Source: Euryarchaeota archaeon Ods02 | Lineage (GTDB): Archaea; Halobacteriota; Halobacteria; Halobacteriales; Halorutilaceae | DNA: 64,000 nt | NCBI GenBank assembly: GCA_028751075.1 | Contig: JAQZDA010000009.1 | Location: 1 to 64,000 of the forward strand | Direction of reading: 5' to 3' | Part shown: in pieces, positions 36,757 through 49,729 of the stretch | How positions within the stretch are numbered: the stretch's first letter is position 1 | How the letters are laid out: every line of letters begins with the position of its first letter | The notes under the pieces: generated by a model | The model's input: the letters and a program-made list of their open reading frames with translations, nothing else | What the model was told of the DNA's origin: nothing | Database searches by the model: none | Position numbers and translations under genes: made by a program

Positions 36757-37515
36757 ATGGACACCGCTGAACTCGCAGGATACCTCGACAGCCTGCTGGA
36801 GCACGACGACTGGCAGCCTCTGGACGCCGCGTACGACGGCCTTCAGGTGGAGAACTCCGGCGAAGTCGAACGCGTGGCGTTCGCCGTCGACGCAGCGCTG
36901 GAGACCGTGGAGATGGCGGCGGCGGAGGACGCCGACGCTCTCGTAGTCCACCACGGCATAGTCTGGGGCGGACTCGACCACGTCGCAGGCGTCACCTACG
37001 ACCGCATACAGGCGTTGATGGAGGCCGACGTCGCGCTGTACGCCTCACACCTCCCGCTCGACGCCCACCCCGACGTCGGCAACAACGCCTTACTGCTCGA
37101 AGACCTGGGTGCGGAGCCGGTGGAGTCGTTCGGCGACGTCGGCGGCCGCGACGTCGGACGCGTCGGCCTGCTACCGGACGCCATAGGCTTCGAGGAGTTC
37201 GTCGACCGGCTGGAGAGCTGCGTCGACAGGGAGGCGGTCTCGCTGGATTTCGGCGGCGACTCCGTTCAACGTGTCGCCTCTGTGACGGGTTCCGGTTCGG
37301 ACTTCATGGAGGATGCGGCGGACGTTGACCCGGATGTCTTCGTAAGCGGGGAATCCAAGCACAAGGCCCACCATCTCGCACGCGACCTAGAGTTGAACGC
37401 GGCCTTCGGCGGCCACTACCACACCGAGGTCTACGGAGTGCAGGCGCTGCAGCAGAGGGTCGAAAACGAGTTCCCCTTGGAGACGATGTGGTTGGACGCA
37501 CCGACGGAGATCTGA
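36757..37515 (+). CDS. Nif3-like dinuclear-metal-centre protein
   Basis: A 252-residue NIF3/DUF34 protein. Metal-ligand motifs are VHHGIVWGG (near residue 68), ASHLPLDAHPDVGNN (near 95), and the C-terminal SGESKHKAHHLARDLELNAA and GGHYHTEVYGVQAL (near 220). These hexameric proteins carry a di-metal site and have been linked to GTP cyclohydrolase-like or GTP-binding roles, but the activity is unsettled. Starts at ATG 36757 and precedes a convergent ABC1 kinase gene. Confidence 0.92.
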   Translation: MDTAELAGYLDSLLEHDDWQPLDAAYDGLQVENSGEVERVAFAVDAALETVEMAAAEDADALVVHHGIVWGGLDHVAGVTYDRIQALMEADVALYASHLPLDAHPDVGNNALLLEDLGAEPVESFGDVGGRDVGRVGLLPDAIGFEEFVDRLESCVDREAVSLDFGGDSVQRVASVTGSGSDFMEDAADVDPDVFVSGESKHKAHHLARDLELNAAFGGHYHTEVYGVQALQQRVENEFPLETMWLDAPTEI

Positions 37516-37563: not shown

Positions 37564-39288
37564 TCAGTCCTCGGCCACCGCGCGCGACTCCTCTTCCTGC
37601 TCCTCCTGAGTCTCTTCCACGTAGACCTCCGTGGCTTCGTCGTCGCCTACACCTACTTCGTCCCACTTCTCCATCTGATACCGCATCGTGAACATAGGCC
37701 CCGTCACTTCGGAGTCCTTCTCCCGGAACGACCGATACACCCGGGCGAAGAGGAGCAATCCAAGCAGCGATACGGCCGCCGACGCCACCGCCCCGACTGC
37801 TGGCACGGCTGTGTAGAGGAGGCCGCCGCCGAGCACCATGGCTGCGGCGGCGACCGAGGCTACTACGCGTCTCCCCGCCCGCCGTACTTCGTCGACCACG
37901 TCGTCTCGCATGCTATCGACGTGAACCCTTTTGGCGCGTTCGCGTGCGTCCCGTCGGATCTCCTCGAGGTCGAGCTCGAGGCTCCGTTGTTCGACGAAGA
38001 ACTGTGCGAGGTGGTTGCTGAAGTCGTATGTTGGGTCGAGGCTGGTGGCGAGGCCCTGGACGCCGGTGATGGAGCGGAGGCTGTAGAGGATGTCGGTGTT
38101 CATCTGGATGGGGAAGTCGGTGAAGGCTTCGTCGAAGGCTTCGGCGACCTCGCCGAGATCTATCTCGTCGGTGTCTCCGGCGACGTCCTTCGACACCGCC
38201 TCCGCCCACCGGCACATCGCCCTCCACTGTCGCTGCGACCGGATCTCCGTGGCTTCGAGGTCCTCTAGAGCGGCTACTGCGACGTCCTCGTCGTGGGTTC
38301 CGACGCCGACGAGGAACCGGGCGAATGCGTCCGTTATCTCGGGGGAAGGCCGGACGCTCATTCCGTAGTCGTAGATGACTACGCGGCCGTCGTCCGCGAC
38401 AGCGAGGTTGCCGTGGTGGGGGTCGGTCTGGTAGACTCCGTACTTGAACGCCATACGGAGGTAGGCTTCGACTATCCGGCGCGCTACGACGGAGAGATCG
38501 TGTCCTCTGTTCCGGAGTTCGTCGGGGTGCTTGACCTTCACGCCGTCCTCGAAGCTCATCACGACGACGCGCGGGGTCGAGAGGTCGGGATACAGTTCGG
38601 GGACGACGACTGTGTCGTCGAAGCCGTCGTCCTCGACGGCGTCGTGGATCTCCGCCATTACCTCCGCCTCCCGCTGGAAGTCTATCTCCTCCCTCAGCGA
38701 CTCCTCGACGTCGAGGGTTACGGAGACGAGGGTGCCGGCGTGGGTGTCCTCACCCATAACCTGCATCAGGCGGGTGAGGAAGCCGACCATGGTCTTCAGG
38801 GCGGCGAGATCCGCCTCCACCCTCTCCCGTAGCTCGGGGCGCTGGACTTTGACGGCTACGTCTTCGCCGTTGAGGACGGCGCGGTGTACCTGGCTGACGG
38901 AAGCAGCTGAGAGGGGTTCTTCGTCGAACTCCTCGAAGAGTTCGTCGGGGTCGCCTATCTCGTTCTCCAGCACCTCTCGCACTCCGTCTGGGTCGGCGGC
39001 TGCGACGTCGTCCTGCAGCCTCTGAAGCTCCTGTATGTAGATGGGGGGTACGAAGTCCGGGCGGGTCGTCAGGAACTGAGCTACCTTGATGTACGTGGTG
39101 CCGAGGCTTTCGAAGGCGTCGGCTAGACGGCGGGCGCGACGCCTGCGGTCCTCCTCCGAGAGCATGCGGCTGCCGCCGAAGAACAGATACCTGTTGGTGT
39201 CTCTCCAGTAGGTGAAGAGCAGCGGCAGGAACGTCCGTAGTGCGGCGAGGACGCGGCGGAGTCTCCTGCGTCTCGATACGGAGTTCAT
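37564..39288 (-). CDS. ABC1/UbiB-family atypical protein kinase (copy 1)
   Basis: A 574-residue ABC1-family kinase-like protein. GTTYIKVAQFLTTRPDFVPP (the KxGQ-equivalent; here KVAQ) lies near residue 64, SAASVSQVHRAVLNGEDVAV the A-rich loop and Lys region near 127, the catalytic loop DPHHGNLAVADDGRV near 297, and YDYGMS the metal-binding motif near 314. Two C-terminal hydrophobic segments (about 495-535) anchor it in the membrane. Family members support isoprenoid quinone synthesis or lipid homeostasis. It follows a close paralogue (39365-41110) on the same strand; both look intact. Confidence 0.9.
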   Translation of the reverse strand: MNSVSRRRRLRRVLAALRTFLPLLFTYWRDTNRYLFFGGSRMLSEEDRRRRARRLADAFESLGTTYIKVAQFLTTRPDFVPPIYIQELQRLQDDVAAADPDGVREVLENEIGDPDELFEEFDEEPLSAASVSQVHRAVLNGEDVAVKVQRPELRERVEADLAALKTMVGFLTRLMQVMGEDTHAGTLVSVTLDVEESLREEIDFQREAEVMAEIHDAVEDDGFDDTVVVPELYPDLSTPRVVVMSFEDGVKVKHPDELRNRGHDLSVVARRIVEAYLRMAFKYGVYQTDPHHGNLAVADDGRVVIYDYGMSVRPSPEITDAFARFLVGVGTHDEDVAVAALEDLEATEIRSQRQWRAMCRWAEAVSKDVAGDTDEIDLGEVAEAFDEAFTDFPIQMNTDILYSLRSITGVQGLATSLDPTYDFSNHLAQFFVEQRSLELDLEEIRRDARERAKRVHVDSMRDDVVDEVRRAGRRVVASVAAAAMVLGGGLLYTAVPAVGAVASAAVSLLGLLLFARVYRSFREKDSEVTGPMFTMRYQMEKWDEVGVGDDEATEVYVEETQEEQEEESRAVAED

Positions 39289-39364
39289 CTTGACGTGTGT
39301 ATGGAGAACGTCCTTATAAAACGCCGCTCTATCTACCGCGTTCGCGTCAGCTTCGCCGGCTGGT

Positions 39365-41110
39365 TCAGTCGGTGTTCCGATCGGTCTCCACCTGTATACC
39401 CTGGCCGTCTCCTTCCGGGTCTTCCCCTTCTCTTTCTTCGGCGTCCTCCGCCATTTTCCTCCTGTGTTCGACGTTCTCCTGGGACCGGTGTTCGTCGCTC
39501 CATTTGTCCATCTCCGTCCTCATGAGGAACATCGGACCGACGACCTCGTCCTTCCTCCGGAGAGACGCAGCTACCTTGAGGAACAGTATGGCGCCGACGC
39601 CTACGACTGCGACGGCTGGCGCCGCCCCGAATCCAGCGAGGTAGACCAGTCCACCGCCGACCGCGAAGGTGGAGGCCAGCGCCGAGAGCACGGTTCGTTT
39701 GCTGTCGGCTCTGATCTCCTCGACTACGTCCTCGCGGAGTCCGTCGATGTCGACGCGGTCACGGCGTTCCTGTGCGTCTCTCTGTATCTCCTCGAAGTCG
39801 AGGTCGAAGGCGTCCTGTTCTACGAAGAACCGGGTGAGGTGGCTGGTGAAGTCGTAGTCGGGGGATAGCTCCCCTGCGATGCCCTGGAGTCCCGTGGTGG
39901 TTCGGAGTCCGAGGAGGATGTCCTGTCGGATGCGGAGGGGGAAGTCCTCGAAGCTCTCGTCGAACTTGTCCGCGAGCTTCGAAACGTCTACCTCTCCGAC
40001 GTCTCCGCGGGCGTCCTTCGCGAGCGCCTCCACCCAGTCGGCGATTGCGTCGCGTTCCTTCTGAGTGGTGATGTCGACGGCTCCGACGTCCTCCAGCGCG
40101 GCGACGGCGACGTCGGGTTCCCCGAGTCCGATGCCGGCGAAGAACCGGGCGAAGGCTTCGGTGTTCTCGGGTTCGGGTTTCTCGCTGAGTCCGTAGTCGT
40201 AGACGATTATCCGGCCTTCGTCGTCGACAGAGAGGTTGCCGTGGTGGGGGTCTGTCTGGTAGACTCCGTAGACGAAAGCCATACGGAGGTAGACCTCGAC
40301 GAGGCGTTCCGCGAGCTTCGAAGGGTCGTGTCCCCTGTTCCGGAGCTCCTCCACGTCCTTTATCTTCACGCCGTCTTCGTAGCTCATCACTATCACCTTC
40401 GAGGTGCAGTACTCCTTGTAGGTCTCGGGGACGACGACCTCGTCGTCGAAGCCCTCGCGGACGACGTTCTCCCGTATCTCCATCATCACCGAGGCTTCGC
40501 GGCCGAAGTCTATCTCCTCGTGCAGCCGCTGGTCGAGGTCCTCCGTTATCTCCTGCAGCGACTCCGCGTGGGAGTACTGGCCGAGCGCAACCAGCACCCG
40601 CACGAGCGCCCCCGAGATGAGGTGGAGCGCCGTGAGGTCGGCTTCGATGACCTGTCTCAAGCCGGGGCGCTGTACCTTTACGGCGACGTCGTCTCCACCG
40701 ACGCTGGCCCTGTGCACCTGAGCTATCGACGCCGACGAGATAGGTTCCTCCTCGAAGTATTCGAAGACCTCGTCGACGTCGCCGAGCTCCTCCTCCAGCA
40801 TCGCCTCGACCCGGCTGAACTCCTCGGGCGGGACCTCGTCCTGCAGCCTCTGCATCTCCTCTATGTAGATGGGGGGTACGAAGTCCGGGCGGGTCGTCAG
40901 GAACTGCGCGAGCTTGATGTACGTGACGCCGAGGCGTTCGAACGCGTCCGCGAGCCTACGCGCTCTCTCCCGCCGCTGCTCCCTGTCGAGCTCCCGCGGC
41001 GCCCCGAACAACAGGTATCGGCGGGCGTCACGGGCGTGCGTGATAACCATAGGTGTCAGAATCCAGACTGCCTTTGCTACTCTACCTGCGCTTCTGAAAG
41101 CCCCACACAT
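39365..41110 (-). CDS. ABC1/UbiB-family atypical protein kinase (copy 2)
   Basis: A 581-residue paralogue of the gene at 37564. It keeps GVTYIKLAQFLTTRPDFVPP (near residue 63), ISSASIAQVHRASVGGDDVA (near 126), DPHHGNLSVDDEGRI (near 292), YDYGLS (near 310) and a C-terminal pair of hydrophobic segments (about 495-530). The two share about the same domain layout and long identical stretches such as TTRPDFVPPIYI, so they arose by tandem duplication. It starts at ATG 41110; the N-terminus has an extra hydrophobic helix. Only 76 bases separate the two genes. Confidence 0.9.
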   Translation of the reverse strand: MCGAFRSAGRVAKAVWILTPMVITHARDARRYLLFGAPRELDREQRRERARRLADAFERLGVTYIKLAQFLTTRPDFVPPIYIEEMQRLQDEVPPEEFSRVEAMLEEELGDVDEVFEYFEEEPISSASIAQVHRASVGGDDVAVKVQRPGLRQVIEADLTALHLISGALVRVLVALGQYSHAESLQEITEDLDQRLHEEIDFGREASVMMEIRENVVREGFDDEVVVPETYKEYCTSKVIVMSYEDGVKIKDVEELRNRGHDPSKLAERLVEVYLRMAFVYGVYQTDPHHGNLSVDDEGRIIVYDYGLSEKPEPENTEAFARFFAGIGLGEPDVAVAALEDVGAVDITTQKERDAIADWVEALAKDARGDVGEVDVSKLADKFDESFEDFPLRIRQDILLGLRTTTGLQGIAGELSPDYDFTSHLTRFFVEQDAFDLDFEEIQRDAQERRDRVDIDGLREDVVEEIRADSKRTVLSALASTFAVGGGLVYLAGFGAAPAVAVVGVGAILFLKVAASLRRKDEVVGPMFLMRTEMDKWSDEHRSQENVEHRRKMAEDAEEREGEDPEGDGQGIQVETDRNTD

Positions 41111-44050: not shown

Positions 44051-45226
44051 ATGCTGTCGCGGACTAACTGGGCTCTAGCAGCGGTCGCAGCCTCCGTCGC
44101 AGTCGCCCTGATGTCGGGGCTGGAGATAGAGTACGCCGCAGCCATCGTGGTAGCGGTCGCGTTCGCCGTCTTCGTACCCCTCAGGAGCCTGCCTCACGAG
44201 CTACGGCGTCTGACGTGGACGACTAGCACGAGCCCGAAAGCCTGGATAGCCGCCGCCGCAGCATTCCTGACGGCTGTCGCCGCCATGCACGCTCTCGGTT
44301 CACCGGAGTACAGCTACGACTGCGCCTGGCGCGCATACCGCAGATGCCGCACCGGCCAGTTCTGGGCGACGACAGCGTTCGCCGCCGGCGTCGCAGCCGC
44401 AGCCATCAGCGTGAGCTACCTCCCCGCCTACCGGCTCGTCACCGACGGCGAGAAATCCTCCGCAGCAGACGCCCACGAAGGCAGGGTCGTCGTCACCGGA
44501 GAGGTGGAGGCAGCCGACGACCTGCTGGAGGCACCGTTCTCGGGCGAAGACTGCGTCTGCACCCGGTACGCCGTCCAGGAACGGTACAACGAACGCCTGT
44601 TCAGCGACGACGGCAGCTGGCACACCGTCGCCGCCGGAGAGACGGTGACGCCGTTCTACGTAGACGACGGCAGCGACCGATTGCTCGTCGACCCCAACGA
44701 CGGCTACCTCACCCTGAACGACGTCACCTCACACGGCCCCGTAGGCGACGTCGCCATCGAGGAAAACGCCGACGACGGAGAAGGAACCCTGGCGGATGGA
44801 GACGGCTACGACGACGCGGGTCCCGAGCGCGAAGATGCAGCCGCTCTGGACGCCGTCGTCTCCAGCGGCCGCGTCTACCGGTGCGACACCGAGATAGAGG
44901 TCGCGGCGGACGAGGAACCTCCGGAACGAGTGGAACGCTGGCGACGTGAGAACACCGGCGTGCTGCCGCTGCTGCCGCGCAGCCGCCGGTACCAGGAGAG
45001 CCTGCTACGTCCCGGCGACGCCGTCACCGTCGCCGGAGACCTTCGGCTGGTCAGCCACGGATACCCCGAAAGACGCGTCGTAGGCGCCGACGACGCAGCC
45101 GTGAAGGTCGCCGCCGGCGACGCCCACGACGTCTCGATGTGGCTTACCGGTGCCGTCTGGGTGGGAGGCGCCATCGCCATCCTGCTGACACCGGTGGGGC
45201 TGGCGGGGATGTACCTGACGCTGTGA
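44051..45226 (+). CDS. GIDE-domain membrane protein (MUL1-like)
   Basis: A 391-residue protein with four or five hydrophobic segments (about 6-45, 62-80, 98-120 and 365-390) around a soluble domain (about 130-350). GRVVVTGEVEAADDLLEAPF, then DCVCTRYAVQERYNE and RYQESLLRPGDAVTVAGDLR match the GIDE domain found between the helices of mitochondrial MUL1 and in prokaryotic homologues. No RING domain is present, so a ubiquitin-ligase role is excluded; the prokaryotic function is unknown. It ends just before an accessory island. Confidence 0.75.
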   Translation: MLSRTNWALAAVAASVAVALMSGLEIEYAAAIVVAVAFAVFVPLRSLPHELRRLTWTTSTSPKAWIAAAAAFLTAVAAMHALGSPEYSYDCAWRAYRRCRTGQFWATTAFAAGVAAAAISVSYLPAYRLVTDGEKSSAADAHEGRVVVTGEVEAADDLLEAPFSGEDCVCTRYAVQERYNERLFSDDGSWHTVAAGETVTPFYVDDGSDRLLVDPNDGYLTLNDVTSHGPVGDVAIEENADDGEGTLADGDGYDDAGPEREDAAALDAVVSSGRVYRCDTEIEVAADEEPPERVERWRRENTGVLPLLPRSRRYQESLLRPGDAVTVAGDLRLVSHGYPERRVVGADDAAVKVAAGDAHDVSMWLTGAVWVGGAIAILLTPVGLAGMYLTL

Positions 45227-45351: not shown

Positions 45352-45942
45352 ATGGAGTTCACCGATGAAGGCGTCGTGATAGACAAGCCAGCGAACACAA
45401 TGGACGAGATGGTGCTGGACGTCGTCGGGGTTCTGCAGAATCACGGGGTCAAGTACGCGGTCGTCAGCGGCTACGTAGCGGTTCTGTTCGGGAGAGCGAG
45501 GTCCACGGAGGACATAGACGTGATAACCGAGAGGTTCACCAGGGAGACGGCCTCTGCCATAGCCTGCAACCTCGAGAAGAGGGGTTACTGGGGTCCCGCG
45601 ATGCCGCTGGACGATATATACGAGACCCTGTCGGACGACCTCCCGATACGTGTAGCCAGAGAAGGAGACGTAGTCCCGAACGTCGAGATGAAGTTCGCCT
45701 CCGATCGAATCGACCGATGGTCCCTGAAGGAGACGGTGGAGGTCAAGCTCAGGGAGGGGGAGATACAGGTGGGTTCGCTGGAGCTGCAGATAGCCTACAA
45801 GCTGGCGATGGGTGCGCGGAAGGACCACGAGGACGCGTTACACCTCTACAGCGTGACCGAGGGAAATCTTAATATCCACGAACTCGAAAGGTACGTCAGG
45901 GAACTCGGAGTCGAGGAGGAGTATGACGAACTCAGATCTTGA
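45352..45942 (+). CDS. Nucleotidyltransferase-fold protein (AbiEii/DUF6036-like)
   Basis: A 196-residue protein. YAVVSGYVAVLFGRARSTED near residue 36 and the following DIDVI match the helix-turn and DxD of minimal nucleotidyltransferases, with a second acidic strand VEMKFASDRID near 115. Later, LELQIAYKLAMGARKDHEDA supplies the Lys and Asp common in AbiEii/DUF6036 toxins and antitoxins. It is followed, with a 20-base overlap, by a 62-residue gene, the classical order of a two-gene toxin-antitoxin operon. A TATA-like ctttatc at 45320-45326 lies about 30 bases before the ATG. Confidence 0.7.
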   Translation: MEFTDEGVVIDKPANTMDEMVLDVVGVLQNHGVKYAVVSGYVAVLFGRARSTEDIDVITERFTRETASAIACNLEKRGYWGPAMPLDDIYETLSDDLPIRVAREGDVVPNVEMKFASDRIDRWSLKETVEVKLREGEIQVGSLELQIAYKLAMGARKDHEDALHLYSVTEGNLNIHELERYVRELGVEEEYDELRS

Positions 45943-46111
45943 CAGCAAGCTGGAGACCAACCGCCGAGAGCGGATTAAGCAGGTGAAGCGATGGGCTGAG
46001 TACGTCCGCGACAACCCCGACGAGGACTGGGGGAGACAGGTCAACGAGGTAGTCGACAGCCAGATACAGAGCGCACGCCACTTCCACGCGGAAGACTCCT
46101 CCGACGAGTAG
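45923..46111 (+). CDS. Small partner of the nucleotidyltransferase
   Basis: A 62-residue charged helical protein (KLETNRRERIKQVKRWAEYV, then ending in an acidic tail). Its start overlaps the end of the nucleotidyltransferase gene by 20 bases in another frame, implying coupled translation. I recognise no family. The overlap and size point to the second component of a toxin-antitoxin or defence pair. Confidence 0.6.
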   Translation: MTNSDLDSKLETNRRERIKQVKRWAEYVRDNPDEDWGRQVNEVVDSQIQSARHFHAEDSSDE

Positions 46112-46129: not shown

Positions 46130-46167
46130 CCGAAGCGAATTTACCGTTCTCCCGCGAAACACCGGAT

Positions 46168-46229
46168 GCCGATGACGAAGCACTCCATCCGACGCGAGAG
46201 CGGATGACGAACCCTATGAGTGCCGAGGC
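46168..46229 (+). repeat. 62-bp direct repeat, copy 1
   Basis: Matches 48518-48579 at 61 of 62 positions (T at 46188 against G at 48538). It contains ATGACGAAGCACTCC and, 21 bases later, ATGACGAACCC. It lies left of the beta-helix gene; copy 2 lies right of it. Confidence 0.9.
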
Positions 46230-46443
46230 CAGCCTCCATACCTCTCTTAGAAAGCAGCACAGTCTTCCGCCAGCTACTGTGTGACAGCTACGGTCGGCTT
46301 GGATGCAGTCAGATGCATCCGCCGAAGTCCATCTCTACGTTAACCCCGTTCAGAACGCCGAAGACCTGTCCTGGTGAACCTTGCACCATCCGTTCCACGT
46401 CCACTCCATGGTTCCACCGATGCAAGTGGTTACCGGGTTTCGC

Positions 46444-48354
46444 TCAGTCTTCTATCTCGCAGTCTCCTTCTGCGTTGTCGTGGAAGTCGTTGATATCGCA
46501 TACGTCCTCGTTAGTCTCGGAGCTCCCGTGCACCCAGACACCCCACTCTCCGCTGTGACGGAACGTTGAGTTAGCCACCGAGACGAACGCCTCTCGGCGC
46601 GACCTGCCCACGTGCAGGTTTCCGTTGCGTTCGCCTCCACCGTACTCTACGACGACGTTCCCGATCGAGTTGTTCCGGCTATAACTGTCGCTGACGTAGA
46701 TGCCATCCCACCAGCCGGGCTGATGCTGGGTTCCCGTGAAGAGTATCGGGTCGTCCGCCGTCCCTTCGAGCTGGAAGATGCTTCCGGAGTCGAACTCCAT
46801 CCCGGCTCCTTCACGGAACAGTATCTCCGCACCGGGTTCGATAACGACCTCGTTGTCCGAGAACTCGACTGTTCCATCGATACGATAGGGGACGTTGATA
46901 CCGTCCCAGCTAGCGTCTTTCTCGACAGACCGACCCGCCACGTCGACAACGTCCTCCTCGTTGCCGGTGTAGTCCGACGTGTCGTCGAGGAAGTGCGCAG
47001 TTCTAGCCGAGACGGACGCCGCACCGCTCTCGTTTCCGGTGTAAACGTTTCCGGCTGAATCGGGTAGTTCCGAACCCCGATGCACGAACAGGCCGTAGCT
47101 GTCGCTGTGGCGGACCGTGCAGTTGGTGAGTCGTAACGACGCATCCCGCCTGCTTCGTCCTACGGTGACAGCCGCCTCGTTGTCACCGCCGCCGAACTCG
47201 ACCAGTGCCTTGGAGAGATGGTTGTTGGCGCTCGCGGAGTCCTCGACGTATATTCCGTTCCACCAACCCGGTGTGTTGTCCGTTGCGGAAAATACGATAG
47301 GTCGTTCGTCCGTTCCCTCAGCGACTATACTGCTTCCGCTGTCGAACTCGAAGTCGGCGTCGTCGTGGAACAGAAACAGAGTTCCGGCTCCGATTTCGAG
47401 TTCCCCGTCGGAGTACTCGGTGCTGCCTTCCATCCGATAGGCGACGTTGAGTGCGTCCCAGGTAGCGTCACCGCTGACACTCCTGCCGCTGATACGGACG
47501 TGGTCTTCGCCGTTGCCGAGATAGTCCGAACCTCCGTCAAGGTAGTGGGTGTTTCGTACGCTCGTCCAGACTGGTCCGGAGTCGTTGCCGACGTAGTTGT
47601 TGGTCTCCGAATCCGGGAACGAGGAGCCTCTATGGACGAACAGCCCGTATCCGTCGCTGTGTCGAAGCGTGCAGTTCGTGACCGTCACGCGAGCTTCACG
47701 TCGACTTCTCCCGACGTGAACGTTCGCTTCGTGGCCGCCTCCGCCGTACTCGACGACGGCGTAGTTGAGGACGTTGTTCAGGCTGTCGGAGTCTTCGATG
47801 TAAAGGCCGTCCCACCAGCCAGGGGATTCCTGTGTTCCCGTCAGCAGTATGGGGTCGTCGGCGGTTCCGTCAGCGATGATCTCTCCGCCCGAGTCGATCT
47901 CCATCTCCGTACCGTCCTGGAACTCAACTATAGTACCTGGGTCTATCGTGAGCGAGTCGGTGACGGTAACGTCTGTCGTGACGACGTGCACGACGTCGTT
48001 CGAGAGAGTTGTGGCTTCGTCTATATCGTCGTTTAGTTCGACCTCTTCGTCGGGTCTCTCGAACTCGTAGCCTTCGTCGACGGCGCCCGCGTTCTCGACC
48101 TCAATGACGTCGGCGGGGTCGTAGTCGAAGGCGGCTGGAGGAGCTCCGGCATCTTCGGAGGTCTCACCTCTACCCGGTCCTTCACCGTCTCCGTCGTGTA
48201 GGCAGCCGGTCAGAGAGCTGGCGCCAGCTGCTCCGATAACAGCGAGCGTCTGCCTTCGGTTCAGCTTCCAGTCGTAGCCGGAAGAGGAGACGCCAGAGCC
48301 CTCGTTCTCACTTACATCCACTCTTTCTCCGTCTTCGTCGACGTGTGATGACAT
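46444..48354 (-). CDS. Tat lipoprotein with three-fold right-handed beta-helix
   Basis: A 636-residue predicted surface lipoprotein. NRRQTLAVIGAAGASSLTGC near residues 31-50 is a twin-arginine signal with a lipobox Cys. The mature part contains three repeats of about 170 residues, each with ILxTGTQxxPGWWDGIYVxD, then a NNxxxxAVVEYGGG block, a VGRSRREAxVxVxN block and RHSxxYGLFVHRGS (third: GVWVHGSS). The short PbH1-like turns suggest a beta-helix that binds or cleaves polysaccharide. It sits alone between two 62-bp direct repeats. Start ATG 48354; a further ATG lies seven codons upstream. Confidence 0.8.
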   Translation of the reverse strand: MSSHVDEDGERVDVSENEGSGVSSSGYDWKLNRRQTLAVIGAAGASSLTGCLHDGDGEGPGRGETSEDAGAPPAAFDYDPADVIEVENAGAVDEGYEFERPDEEVELNDDIDEATTLSNDVVHVVTTDVTVTDSLTIDPGTIVEFQDGTEMEIDSGGEIIADGTADDPILLTGTQESPGWWDGLYIEDSDSLNNVLNYAVVEYGGGGHEANVHVGRSRREARVTVTNCTLRHSDGYGLFVHRGSSFPDSETNNYVGNDSGPVWTSVRNTHYLDGGSDYLGNGEDHVRISGRSVSGDATWDALNVAYRMEGSTEYSDGELEIGAGTLFLFHDDADFEFDSGSSIVAEGTDERPIVFSATDNTPGWWNGIYVEDSASANNHLSKALVEFGGGDNEAAVTVGRSRRDASLRLTNCTVRHSDSYGLFVHRGSELPDSAGNVYTGNESGAASVSARTAHFLDDTSDYTGNEEDVVDVAGRSVEKDASWDGINVPYRIDGTVEFSDNEVVIEPGAEILFREGAGMEFDSGSIFQLEGTADDPILFTGTQHQPGWWDGIYVSDSYSRNNSIGNVVVEYGGGERNGNLHVGRSRREAFVSVANSTFRHSGEWGVWVHGSSETNEDVCDINDFHDNAEGDCEIED

Positions 48355-48667
48355 GGAGTACCAGATACCGCCCAATCACTTAATTACTTGCATGGGCCTG
48401 GGTCGGTCGGACCGTGGGCTCTCATTGCAGCCGTCCTGGCTCCTGGTAGCCGGCTGCGATGTACCTGACGCTCTGGAAACTCGAAGCGGATCTACAGCCG
48501 GCATTCGAAGAAAGTAAGCCGATGACGAAGCACTCCAGCCGACGCGAGAGCGGATGACGAACCCTATGAGTGCCGAGGCATCACCAGGGTTCCTTCCGCT
48601 GGAGCTAAACCTTTCCACCCCTTCAGGAACCTCGAACACAGTGCTACCAACAGCCCCTGGATCCGTG
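48355..48667. other. Intergenic region before DUF2804 with repeat copy 2
   Basis: This 313-base gap holds the promoter of the beta-helix gene (reverse tttaattact-like A/T block near 48380), repeat copy 2 (48518-48579), and a TATA-like gctaaacctttcc near 48603-48615 for DUF2804. A 15-base match (GATGTACCTGACGCT at 48458-48472) also occurs at the end of the GIDE gene (45208-45222). Confidence 0.4.
48518..48579 (+). repeat. 62-bp direct repeat, copy 2
   Basis: Second copy of the repeat at 46168-46229, separated from it by exactly 2350 bases start to start. It directly precedes the DUF2804 gene and contains the upstream ATGs (48522, 48554) that could extend that gene. Confidence 0.9.
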
Positions 48668-49621
48668 ATGCAGGAAGGTGAACCCCGGTACGGAACTTAC
48701 CGCGGCCGCATACCTGACACCGATCTCGCACTCAGGGAACGTGGCGTCAGCCGCGTCTGCGGTTGCGTCAGCGAGAAAAGCTGGCAGTGGTTCGCCGCCT
48801 TCGACGAAGACGTCGCCGTCGGTGGCGCGGTCGTCGACGCAGGCTTTTTCGCCACCGCGTTCCTCTGGGTGTTCGACCGCCGCCGCGGGGAATTGGTCTT
48901 CGACGACTCCGCCGTCGTACCTCCGCAGCTGGTGTCGGTCTCCTCGAAGCCGACGGACGGAGAGGTCGCGGCATCCAGGCTGCCGCGTCGCCGCCTGACG
49001 ATGAATCGAACGGACGACGTCCTCTTCGTCGAAGCGGCGTTCGCCGGCTGCACCGTGTCGCTGGAGTTCACCGTGACCGACGAAGCCGCCGTCACCGCGG
49101 TGGCGTCGGTCGCCGGCCGCGAGGGCGGGGTCAACGTCACCGAGAAGGAAGCAGGATGCCGTGTTTCCGGCTCGGTCGACGTCACCGGCGGTCTCTTCGG
49201 CGGTGGAGACAGCTACAGCGTCGACGGCGAGGGCTTCCTCGACTACAGCCACGGGTTACACGGTCGCGAGACGAGCTGGCGGTGGGCGTTCGCGGGCCTC
49301 GAGACCGAGGACGGAGACTCTGCGGCTTTCAACCTCGTCGAGGGCTGGAACGACGGCTTGGAGAACCTCGTCTGGCTGGACGGCGAAATCCGAACGGTCG
49401 AGGCCGCGGAGCTGGACTGCAGCGACAGGCTCTGGCGGGTTACCACCGACTGCGGCACCGTCGACGCCGCGCTCGACGTCGAAGGCGTCCGCAGGCACTC
49501 GGTGGACATCGGCGTCGTATCGTCGAAGTACACGCAGCCGCTGGGGCAGTGGCACGGCGAGGTAGCTGGCCACGAGGTAGAGGGTGTCGGGGTGGCGGAG
49601 ATCCATCGGACGTGTTGGTAG
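48668..49621 (+). CDS. DUF2804-family protein
   Basis: A 317-residue protein. RYGTYRGRIPDTDLALRERG at the N-terminus and the following KSWQWFAAFDEDVAVGGAVV, with the later GFLDYSHGLHGRETSWRWAF (near residue 200) and AAFNLVEGWNDGLENLVWLD, match DUF2804, a beta-rich family of unknown function seen in many bacteria and archaea. I start it at ATG 48668, where family similarity begins; an upstream ATG at 48554 lies inside the duplicated 62-bp repeat. Confidence 0.85.
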   Translation: MQEGEPRYGTYRGRIPDTDLALRERGVSRVCGCVSEKSWQWFAAFDEDVAVGGAVVDAGFFATAFLWVFDRRRGELVFDDSAVVPPQLVSVSSKPTDGEVAASRLPRRRLTMNRTDDVLFVEAAFAGCTVSLEFTVTDEAAVTAVASVAGREGGVNVTEKEAGCRVSGSVDVTGGLFGGGDSYSVDGEGFLDYSHGLHGRETSWRWAFAGLETEDGDSAAFNLVEGWNDGLENLVWLDGEIRTVEAAELDCSDRLWRVTTDCGTVDAALDVEGVRRHSVDIGVVSSKYTQPLGQWHGEVAGHEVEGVGVAEIHRTCW

Positions 49622-49653
49622 GTACACCTCGATGGCAACTGTCGAAACGGGGT

Positions 49654-49665
49654 GGGGGGGGGGGG
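49654..49665 (+). repeat. G12 homopolymer
   Basis: A run of 12 G bases between DUF2804 and uspA, far longer than other homopolymers here. It could vary in length by slippage or be mis-sized in assembly; it lies outside any coding region. Confidence 0.8.
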
Positions 49666-49729
49666 TATGGGACACTGGAGCCCCCGTGGAGCCCCCTGTT
49701 AATTTACGGTGTCGGAAGCTAACTGGGAT

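Follow-up and report, generated by a model that had tools for sequence, protein, structure and literature searches.

In the genome of Ods02 (G000), a haloarchaeon of the family Halorutilaceae, a gene for a secreted beta-helix protein lies between two near-identical copies of the gene for the box C/D guide RNA sR-tMet. We put at about 0.65 the probability that this pair was made by insertion at an integration hotspot at the 3′ end of the RNA gene. The cassette origin is suggested chiefly by the hotspot as seen in other haloarchaea and by a closely parallel locus in another genome, G225.

Two copies of the sR-tMet guide RNA gene

The window, which is the whole stretch of 64 kb analysed here, contains two 62-bp repeats in direct orientation (46168-46229 and 48518-48579). 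They are identical at 61 of 62 bases with a spacing of 2350, and the single difference is T46188 in the left copy against G48538, which adjoins box D′, in the right one. The original prediction had described this pair, with a beta-helix gene as the only gene between the copies, and is confirmed in each of these points. What it had missed is that each copy looks like a functional gene for a box C/D RNA. A cmscan search assigned both copies to sR-tMet (RF02163) on the forward strand over the full model (1-72 of 72), with 47.5 bits (E 6e-7) for the left and 47.1 bits (E 7.7e-7) for the right copy. These scores lie 2.5-3 bits under the Rfam gathering score of 50, which is a curation threshold and not a biological feature, and the other members of the family except G003 also fall below it, because the Halorutilaceae copies are without the longer middle stem. 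Guide and target were tested separately from this score. The left copy has box C (GATGA, 46171-46175), box D′ (CCGA, 46189-46192), box C′ (GATGA, 46203-46207) and box D (CCGA, 46223-46226) within a terminal stem GCC/GGC, and in the right copy the same boxes are shifted by 2350. Its D guide ACCCTATGAGTG (46211-46222) is a 12-nt perfect complement to the organism's own intron-bearing elongator pre-tRNA-Met on contig C45. The paired target CACTCATAGGGT includes four intron bases, as the pairing region consists of the exon CACTCATA followed by the intron GGGT, with the boundary between the two set by eye on the tRNA fold. Counting from box D, the fifth guide position faces C34 of the elongator tRNA-Met. 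A role of sR-tMet on the elongator pre-tRNA-Met has been reported for Haloferax volcanii (PMC4033218, citing Joardar et al. 2011), and guide, target and boxes in Ods02 agree with this role as it is outlined there. Since the flanks of the two copies share nothing, with similarity stopping at once outside both copies on either side, the repeat boundaries coincide exactly with the RNA ends. We regard it as practically certain that both repeats are complete sR-tMet genes. The RNA would direct 2′-O-methylation of the wobble C34 of the elongator pre-tRNA-Met together with the standard archaeal C/D proteins, and both copies are presumably expressed. Boxes, length, guide sequence, target and full-model match are those of sR-tMet elsewhere, whereas two near-identical copies around a protein gene set the window apart. 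The tRNA-Trp gene of Ods02 (contig C53:138901-139084) also has a long intron, which resembles a box C/D RNA and has the same CCGA box D.

Several features distinguish the two copies. T46188 of the left copy is common to all family relatives, which are Halorutilus salinus F3-133 (G001) and the metagenome-assembled genomes Ods01 (G002) and Ods04 (G003), while the right copy has a derived G at 48538. Moreover, a promoter-like motif, CGAATTTACCGTT, is located 20-32 bases 5′ of the left copy (46136-46148, forward strand; noted by eye in the flank alignment) and resembles, again by eye, CGGATTAACCGTT before copy A of G002. Because of T46188 and the promoter-like motif on the left and the derived base on the right, the left copy is probably native and the right copy added. 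The D′ guide varies among species, yet it is the same in both copies, so that the duplication is either recent or the copies were kept alike by gene conversion. A third copy of the 62-bp repeat is absent from the Ods02 genome, and a search for a further 14-nt core elsewhere in this genome found none.

The interval between the copies (46230-48517, 2288 bp), the proposed cassette, has a GC content of 0.592 compared to 0.638 for the window. Its single gene (46444-48354, reverse strand), the putative cargo, encodes a secreted right-handed beta-helix lipoprotein of 636 aa (Pfam PF13229, 26.1 bits with a cut-off of 25.9) with a Tat motif (RRQTLAVIG), a lipobox (LTGC) and three repeat units of ~184 aa each. 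Its GC3 is 0.71 versus ~0.81 for many neighbouring genes. The gene was not found in the three other genomes of the family, and distant relatives only of the protein are present in 2 of 39 other genomes.

Integration at the 3′ end of sR-tMet

Of the 255 genomes examined in the order, 248 contain an identifiable sR-tMet gene, nearly all of them in a single copy. To see which parts of the locus recur, 60 sR-tMet loci, each with flanks of up to ~8 kb, were divided into tiles. In 10 of the 60, a second occurrence of the 3′-terminal 13-mer was found downstream of the RNA gene on its strand; every other tile, whether from the gene or from its flanks, recurs in 0-1 loci. A pattern built to leave out the normal RNA gene, BTGAGTGCCGAGGCC, gave 46 matches in the 255 genomes versus 21 for the reversed control. 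The majority of these core matches (34 of 46, in 33 genomes) are located 0.4-51 kb downstream of sR-tMet on the same strand, and the repeated unit in these 33 of 255 genomes is an exact 14-nt copy of the last bases of the gene. Among the remaining matches, one (G108) is the RNA itself, one (G216) is close to sR-tMet but on the other strand, and the others are distant or on different contigs. The nearest isolate, Halorutilus salinus, has its own variant, ATGAGTACCGAGGCTG, repeated over 16 nt. Between its sR-tMet gene and this 16-nt copy of the 3′ end lies a VapB/VapC-like pair (L039, 6704-7542), which consists of a PIN gene and a VapB-like partner.

Integrases with a PF00589 domain were detected in 8 of 17 checked intervals (G022, G251, G140, G159, G228, G240, G235 and, decayed, G011), compared to ~0.45 by chance as estimated from integrase counts, interval lengths and genome sizes. 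These integrases of ~310 aa carry Phage_integrase and SAM-like N-terminal domains and are encoded on the strand opposite to the RNA. Furthermore, the element ends are conserved between genera (distal ...actatggatagattgtgagtcgtGAGTGCCGAGGC, proximal GAGTGCCGAGGCcagctttctatccatacatttgcgag) and have inverted arms (TATGGATAG / CTATCCATA); at least two other types of ends exist. Tandem arrays are present in G022, G159, G228 and G036, and in G075 the two RNA copies are accompanied by a low-GC block of virus-like genes (by eye) and by three intact or remnant integrase genes. An empty site was also identified: what follows the distal repeat in G028 matches what immediately follows sR-tMet in G120 and G006, and in each genome the matching stretch is offset by 184-198 bases. 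With core repeat, integrase, conserved ends and empty site all found together in other haloarchaea, we are highly confident that the sR-tMet 3′ end is an integration hotspot in Halobacteria. In our reading, the terminal ~14 bases of sR-tMet (TGAGTGCCGAGGCC) serve as chromosomal attachment site for tyrosine-recombinase elements in the manner of tRNA-gene 3′ ends. Upon integration, an element is bounded on one side by the intact RNA gene and on the other by a copy of the core, and the integrated elements subsequently degenerate or are reduced to small cassettes of cargo.

Many intervals are short and without integrase. A minimal cassette of ~0.9 kb, bounded by sR-tMet and the 14-nt core, recurs at L155, L158, L176 and L200 (~0.9 kb after sR-tMet) and at the distal ends of L159 and L193. 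It encodes a PIN-like protein of 156 aa (by eye) and a partner of ~92 aa, and looks like a mobile toxin-antitoxin pair. In G071, the interval contains a single gene for a secreted subtilisin-like protease (by eye).

Searches for free relatives of these elements covered viral contigs, phage records and plasmid matches and revealed no virus or plasmid with a complete attP. An attP-like query of 86 nt, made by joining the element ends, had no match among phage records and matched one Halobacterium plasmid over half its length. On the Halobacterium hubeiense plasmid NZ_LN831303.1, a distal element end runs into the core (174158-174197) and a tyrosine recombinase gene lies ~5.5 kb away; this plasmid possibly carries a relative of the sR-tMet-site elements. 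In viral contigs, the pattern GATGANGANCCCTATGAG gave 20 matches, none with the RNA box layout, which we took as chance coding matches, and the core pattern gave 47 matches, none with a relative of the integrases, which were likewise taken as chance. An SNJ2-type label for the integrases was dropped, as the listed matches in the phage collection were low-identity integrases, mostly of bacterial phages.

These elements resemble archaeal proviruses and plasmids that are integrated by tyrosine recombinases at tRNA genes: a core of 13-16 bp corresponds to the 3′ end of an RNA gene, the integrase is located near the distal core, the RNA gene stays intact and tandem arrays occur. For example, in pleolipovirus proviruses such as Humcor2 a 13-bp att corresponds to the 3′ end of tRNA-Pro (PMC7911831). 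In contrast, the target here is a gene for a box C/D guide RNA. A review of archaeal tyrosine recombinases lists as their targets tRNA genes, intergenic sites and genes for proteins, and contains none of the small-RNA and C/D terms that we searched for (PMC8371274), and according to a review of C/D RNAs, mobile features of their genes remain to be discovered (PMC7994747). We found no earlier report of an integration site at the sR-tMet 3′ end in the open literature, and priority is uncertain. The 14-bp site, the conserved element ends and the ~310-aa integrases could be tested in Haloferax volcanii, which has sR-tMet. Moreover, a search for proviruses, toxin-antitoxin pairs and secreted enzymes could start from sR-tMet, which marks one defined locus in most haloarchaeal genomes. 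The hotspot also offers a way in which genes for guide RNAs could become duplicated and mobile.

Origin of the pair in the window

Two sR-tMet copies (E 1e-5 or better) were detected in five genomes, with spacings of 2.35 kb in G000, 2.0 kb in G002, 18.7 kb in G075, 3.7 kb in G225 and 1.66 kb in G252. All five pairs are on one strand in direct orientation with different genes between the copies, and inspection by eye showed divergence or decay of the distal copy in G075, G225 and G252. G249 and G143 have weaker, partial second copies at a distance of 0.5-0.9 kb downstream. The original prediction had named a generic interspersed repeat as the case that would speak against a cassette; this was not seen, as the repeat has two copies in G000 and one in nearly all relatives.

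The closest parallel to the window is G225. Its congener G091 has one sR-tMet copy and outer flanks collinear with those of G225, whereas G225 has ~3.8 kb extra downstream, including a second, decayed full-length sR-tMet. The genes between the G225 copies encode a pectinesterase, which itself has a right-handed beta-helix fold, and two further esterases, an abhydrolase and a GDSL lipase. None of the called genes in the extra stretch is an integrase. On this genome comparison, G225 is shown to carry inserted cargo with an extra RNA copy.

We propose that the beta-helix gene entered the window at the RNA gene, as part of a cassette that brought a full-length sR-tMet of its own. A circular element with a whole sR-tMet which recombined at the 3′ end of this gene would generate the order host copy, cargo, element copy, and the window would accordingly consist of the native copy on the left, the cargo, and the added copy on the right. 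The RNA gene ends with TGAGTGCCGAGGC (46217-46229 and 48567-48579, forward strand), which is the attachment core of other haloarchaea and was presumably used as core here as well. The interval has direct repeats of the target at both ends. The original prediction of a cassette acquired by site-specific or homologous recombination gains broad support from the hotspot in at least 33 other haloarchaeal genomes, eight of them with integrase, and from the absence of the beta-helix gene from the rest of the family. On the other side, the 62-bp repeats are longer than the usual core of 13-16 nt and span the whole gene, unlike at tRNA sites, and the linked recombinase that the prediction had suggested looking for is absent, with no PF00589 match on contig C24, which carries the window. 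Recognisable element ends are also absent at 46230 and 48517: the similarity of the left interval end to known ends (TCCATAC) was tested and was not significant (P ~0.05), and the right end has no similarity to them. Family relatives have flanks different from those of the window locus, and empty sites were found for G028 and G225 instead. The arrival of the cargo by this route, and the kind of enzyme that acted, are thus inferred from these parallels. Integrase genes do occur elsewhere in Ods02, at C17:70633-73260 and C30:98864-100064, where they adjoin tRNA genes as in ordinary tRNA-site elements; the one on C17 lies beside an Ile2/Met-type CAT tRNA.

The full-length copies and the lack of both integrase and element ends would also fit a plain local duplication by ordinary recombination, with copies kept alike by gene conversion and the beta-helix gene as an incidental neighbour. 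Duplicated C/D RNA genes are known from Methanopyrus kandleri and Ignicoccus hospitalis, where, as in the window, two guides per genome have the same target (PMC4644070); these differ in that the target is rRNA and that they are not described as cargo-bounding or as integration sites. In G002, the gene between the copies encodes an ABC1 kinase, relatives of which lie near NIF3 in the window too, and may belong to an old neighbourhood rather than represent cargo. However, a segmental copy should bring some of its flank, and none is left although even the fast-changing D′ guide is common to both copies. Moreover, the same layout is present in five genomes at a proven hotspot, and the extra copy of G225 arrived together with new genes. 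We consider a local duplication rather unlikely, if the most serious competitor to insertion. A duplication of the DUF2804 upstream region that captured the beta-helix gene had been the alternative in the original prediction and finds no support, as similarity ends exactly at the RNA gene.

The exact agreement of repeat and RNA boundaries might also be produced if a mature, possibly circular, guide RNA had been copied back into DNA near its source, which we regard as very improbable because it explains neither the closeness and constant direct orientation of the added copies nor the 3′-end-only repeats of other genomes. An assembly artefact, in which a 62-bp repeat joined two places or two strains, is equally improbable: Ods02 is a draft of 56 contigs with 89.85% completeness and G002 is also a metagenome-assembled genome, but the copies differ by one base and have four distinct flanks within one contig, and the same layout is found in the few-contig genomes G225 (5 contigs), G252 (2) and G075 (2).

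Insertion at the hotspot as the origin of the window pair could be part of a broader pattern, in which sR-tMet is a standard docking site for mobile elements across this archaeal class, some cassettes carry a working sR-tMet so that the guide RNA itself is mobile, and cassettes for secreted proteins or toxin-antitoxin pairs accumulate beside it. We offer this generalisation tentatively and give it somewhat less than even odds.

Genes and repeats around the pair

Just 5′ of the left copy (45352-46111, forward strand), open reading frames for a nucleotidyltransferase-like protein and a 62-aa partner were found, which agrees with the nucleotidyltransferase pair predicted next to this copy; the assignment is based on a weak PF09970 match (17.0 bits, below the cut-off). 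The two genes have a toxin-antitoxin-like layout. The right copy is located upstream of a DUF2804 gene (48668-49621, forward strand; Pfam PF10974, 105 bits) and not within it: the long open reading frame that opens at 48554 begins inside the RNA gene, and judging from the Pfam-matched part, ATG 48668 is the likelier start. The other long repeats in the window are all diverged (at most 82%) and mainly come from two neighbouring ABC1-kinase paralogues. These tandem, diverged ABC1 (UbiB-like) kinase genes lie at 37564-41110, and a relative of one of them is the gene between the sR-tMet copies of G002. A stretch just upstream of the right copy (48449-48475) matches the 3′ end of a GIDE-like gene (44051-45226) at 45199-45225, with 15 nt exact and 23 of 27 bases overall. 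The match may have arisen by chance or from an older duplication, and we judged it too short to serve as evidence of a larger one. Upstream of sR-tMet, a NIF3-family gene is present on the same strand at varying distance in several loci (L098/L039, L040, L042, L122 and, in the window, 36757-37515), and this linkage in several distant haloarchaeal families is probably old. Finally, a long G-rich run (gggtgggggggggggg) is located at 49651-49666 between the DUF2804 and Usp genes.
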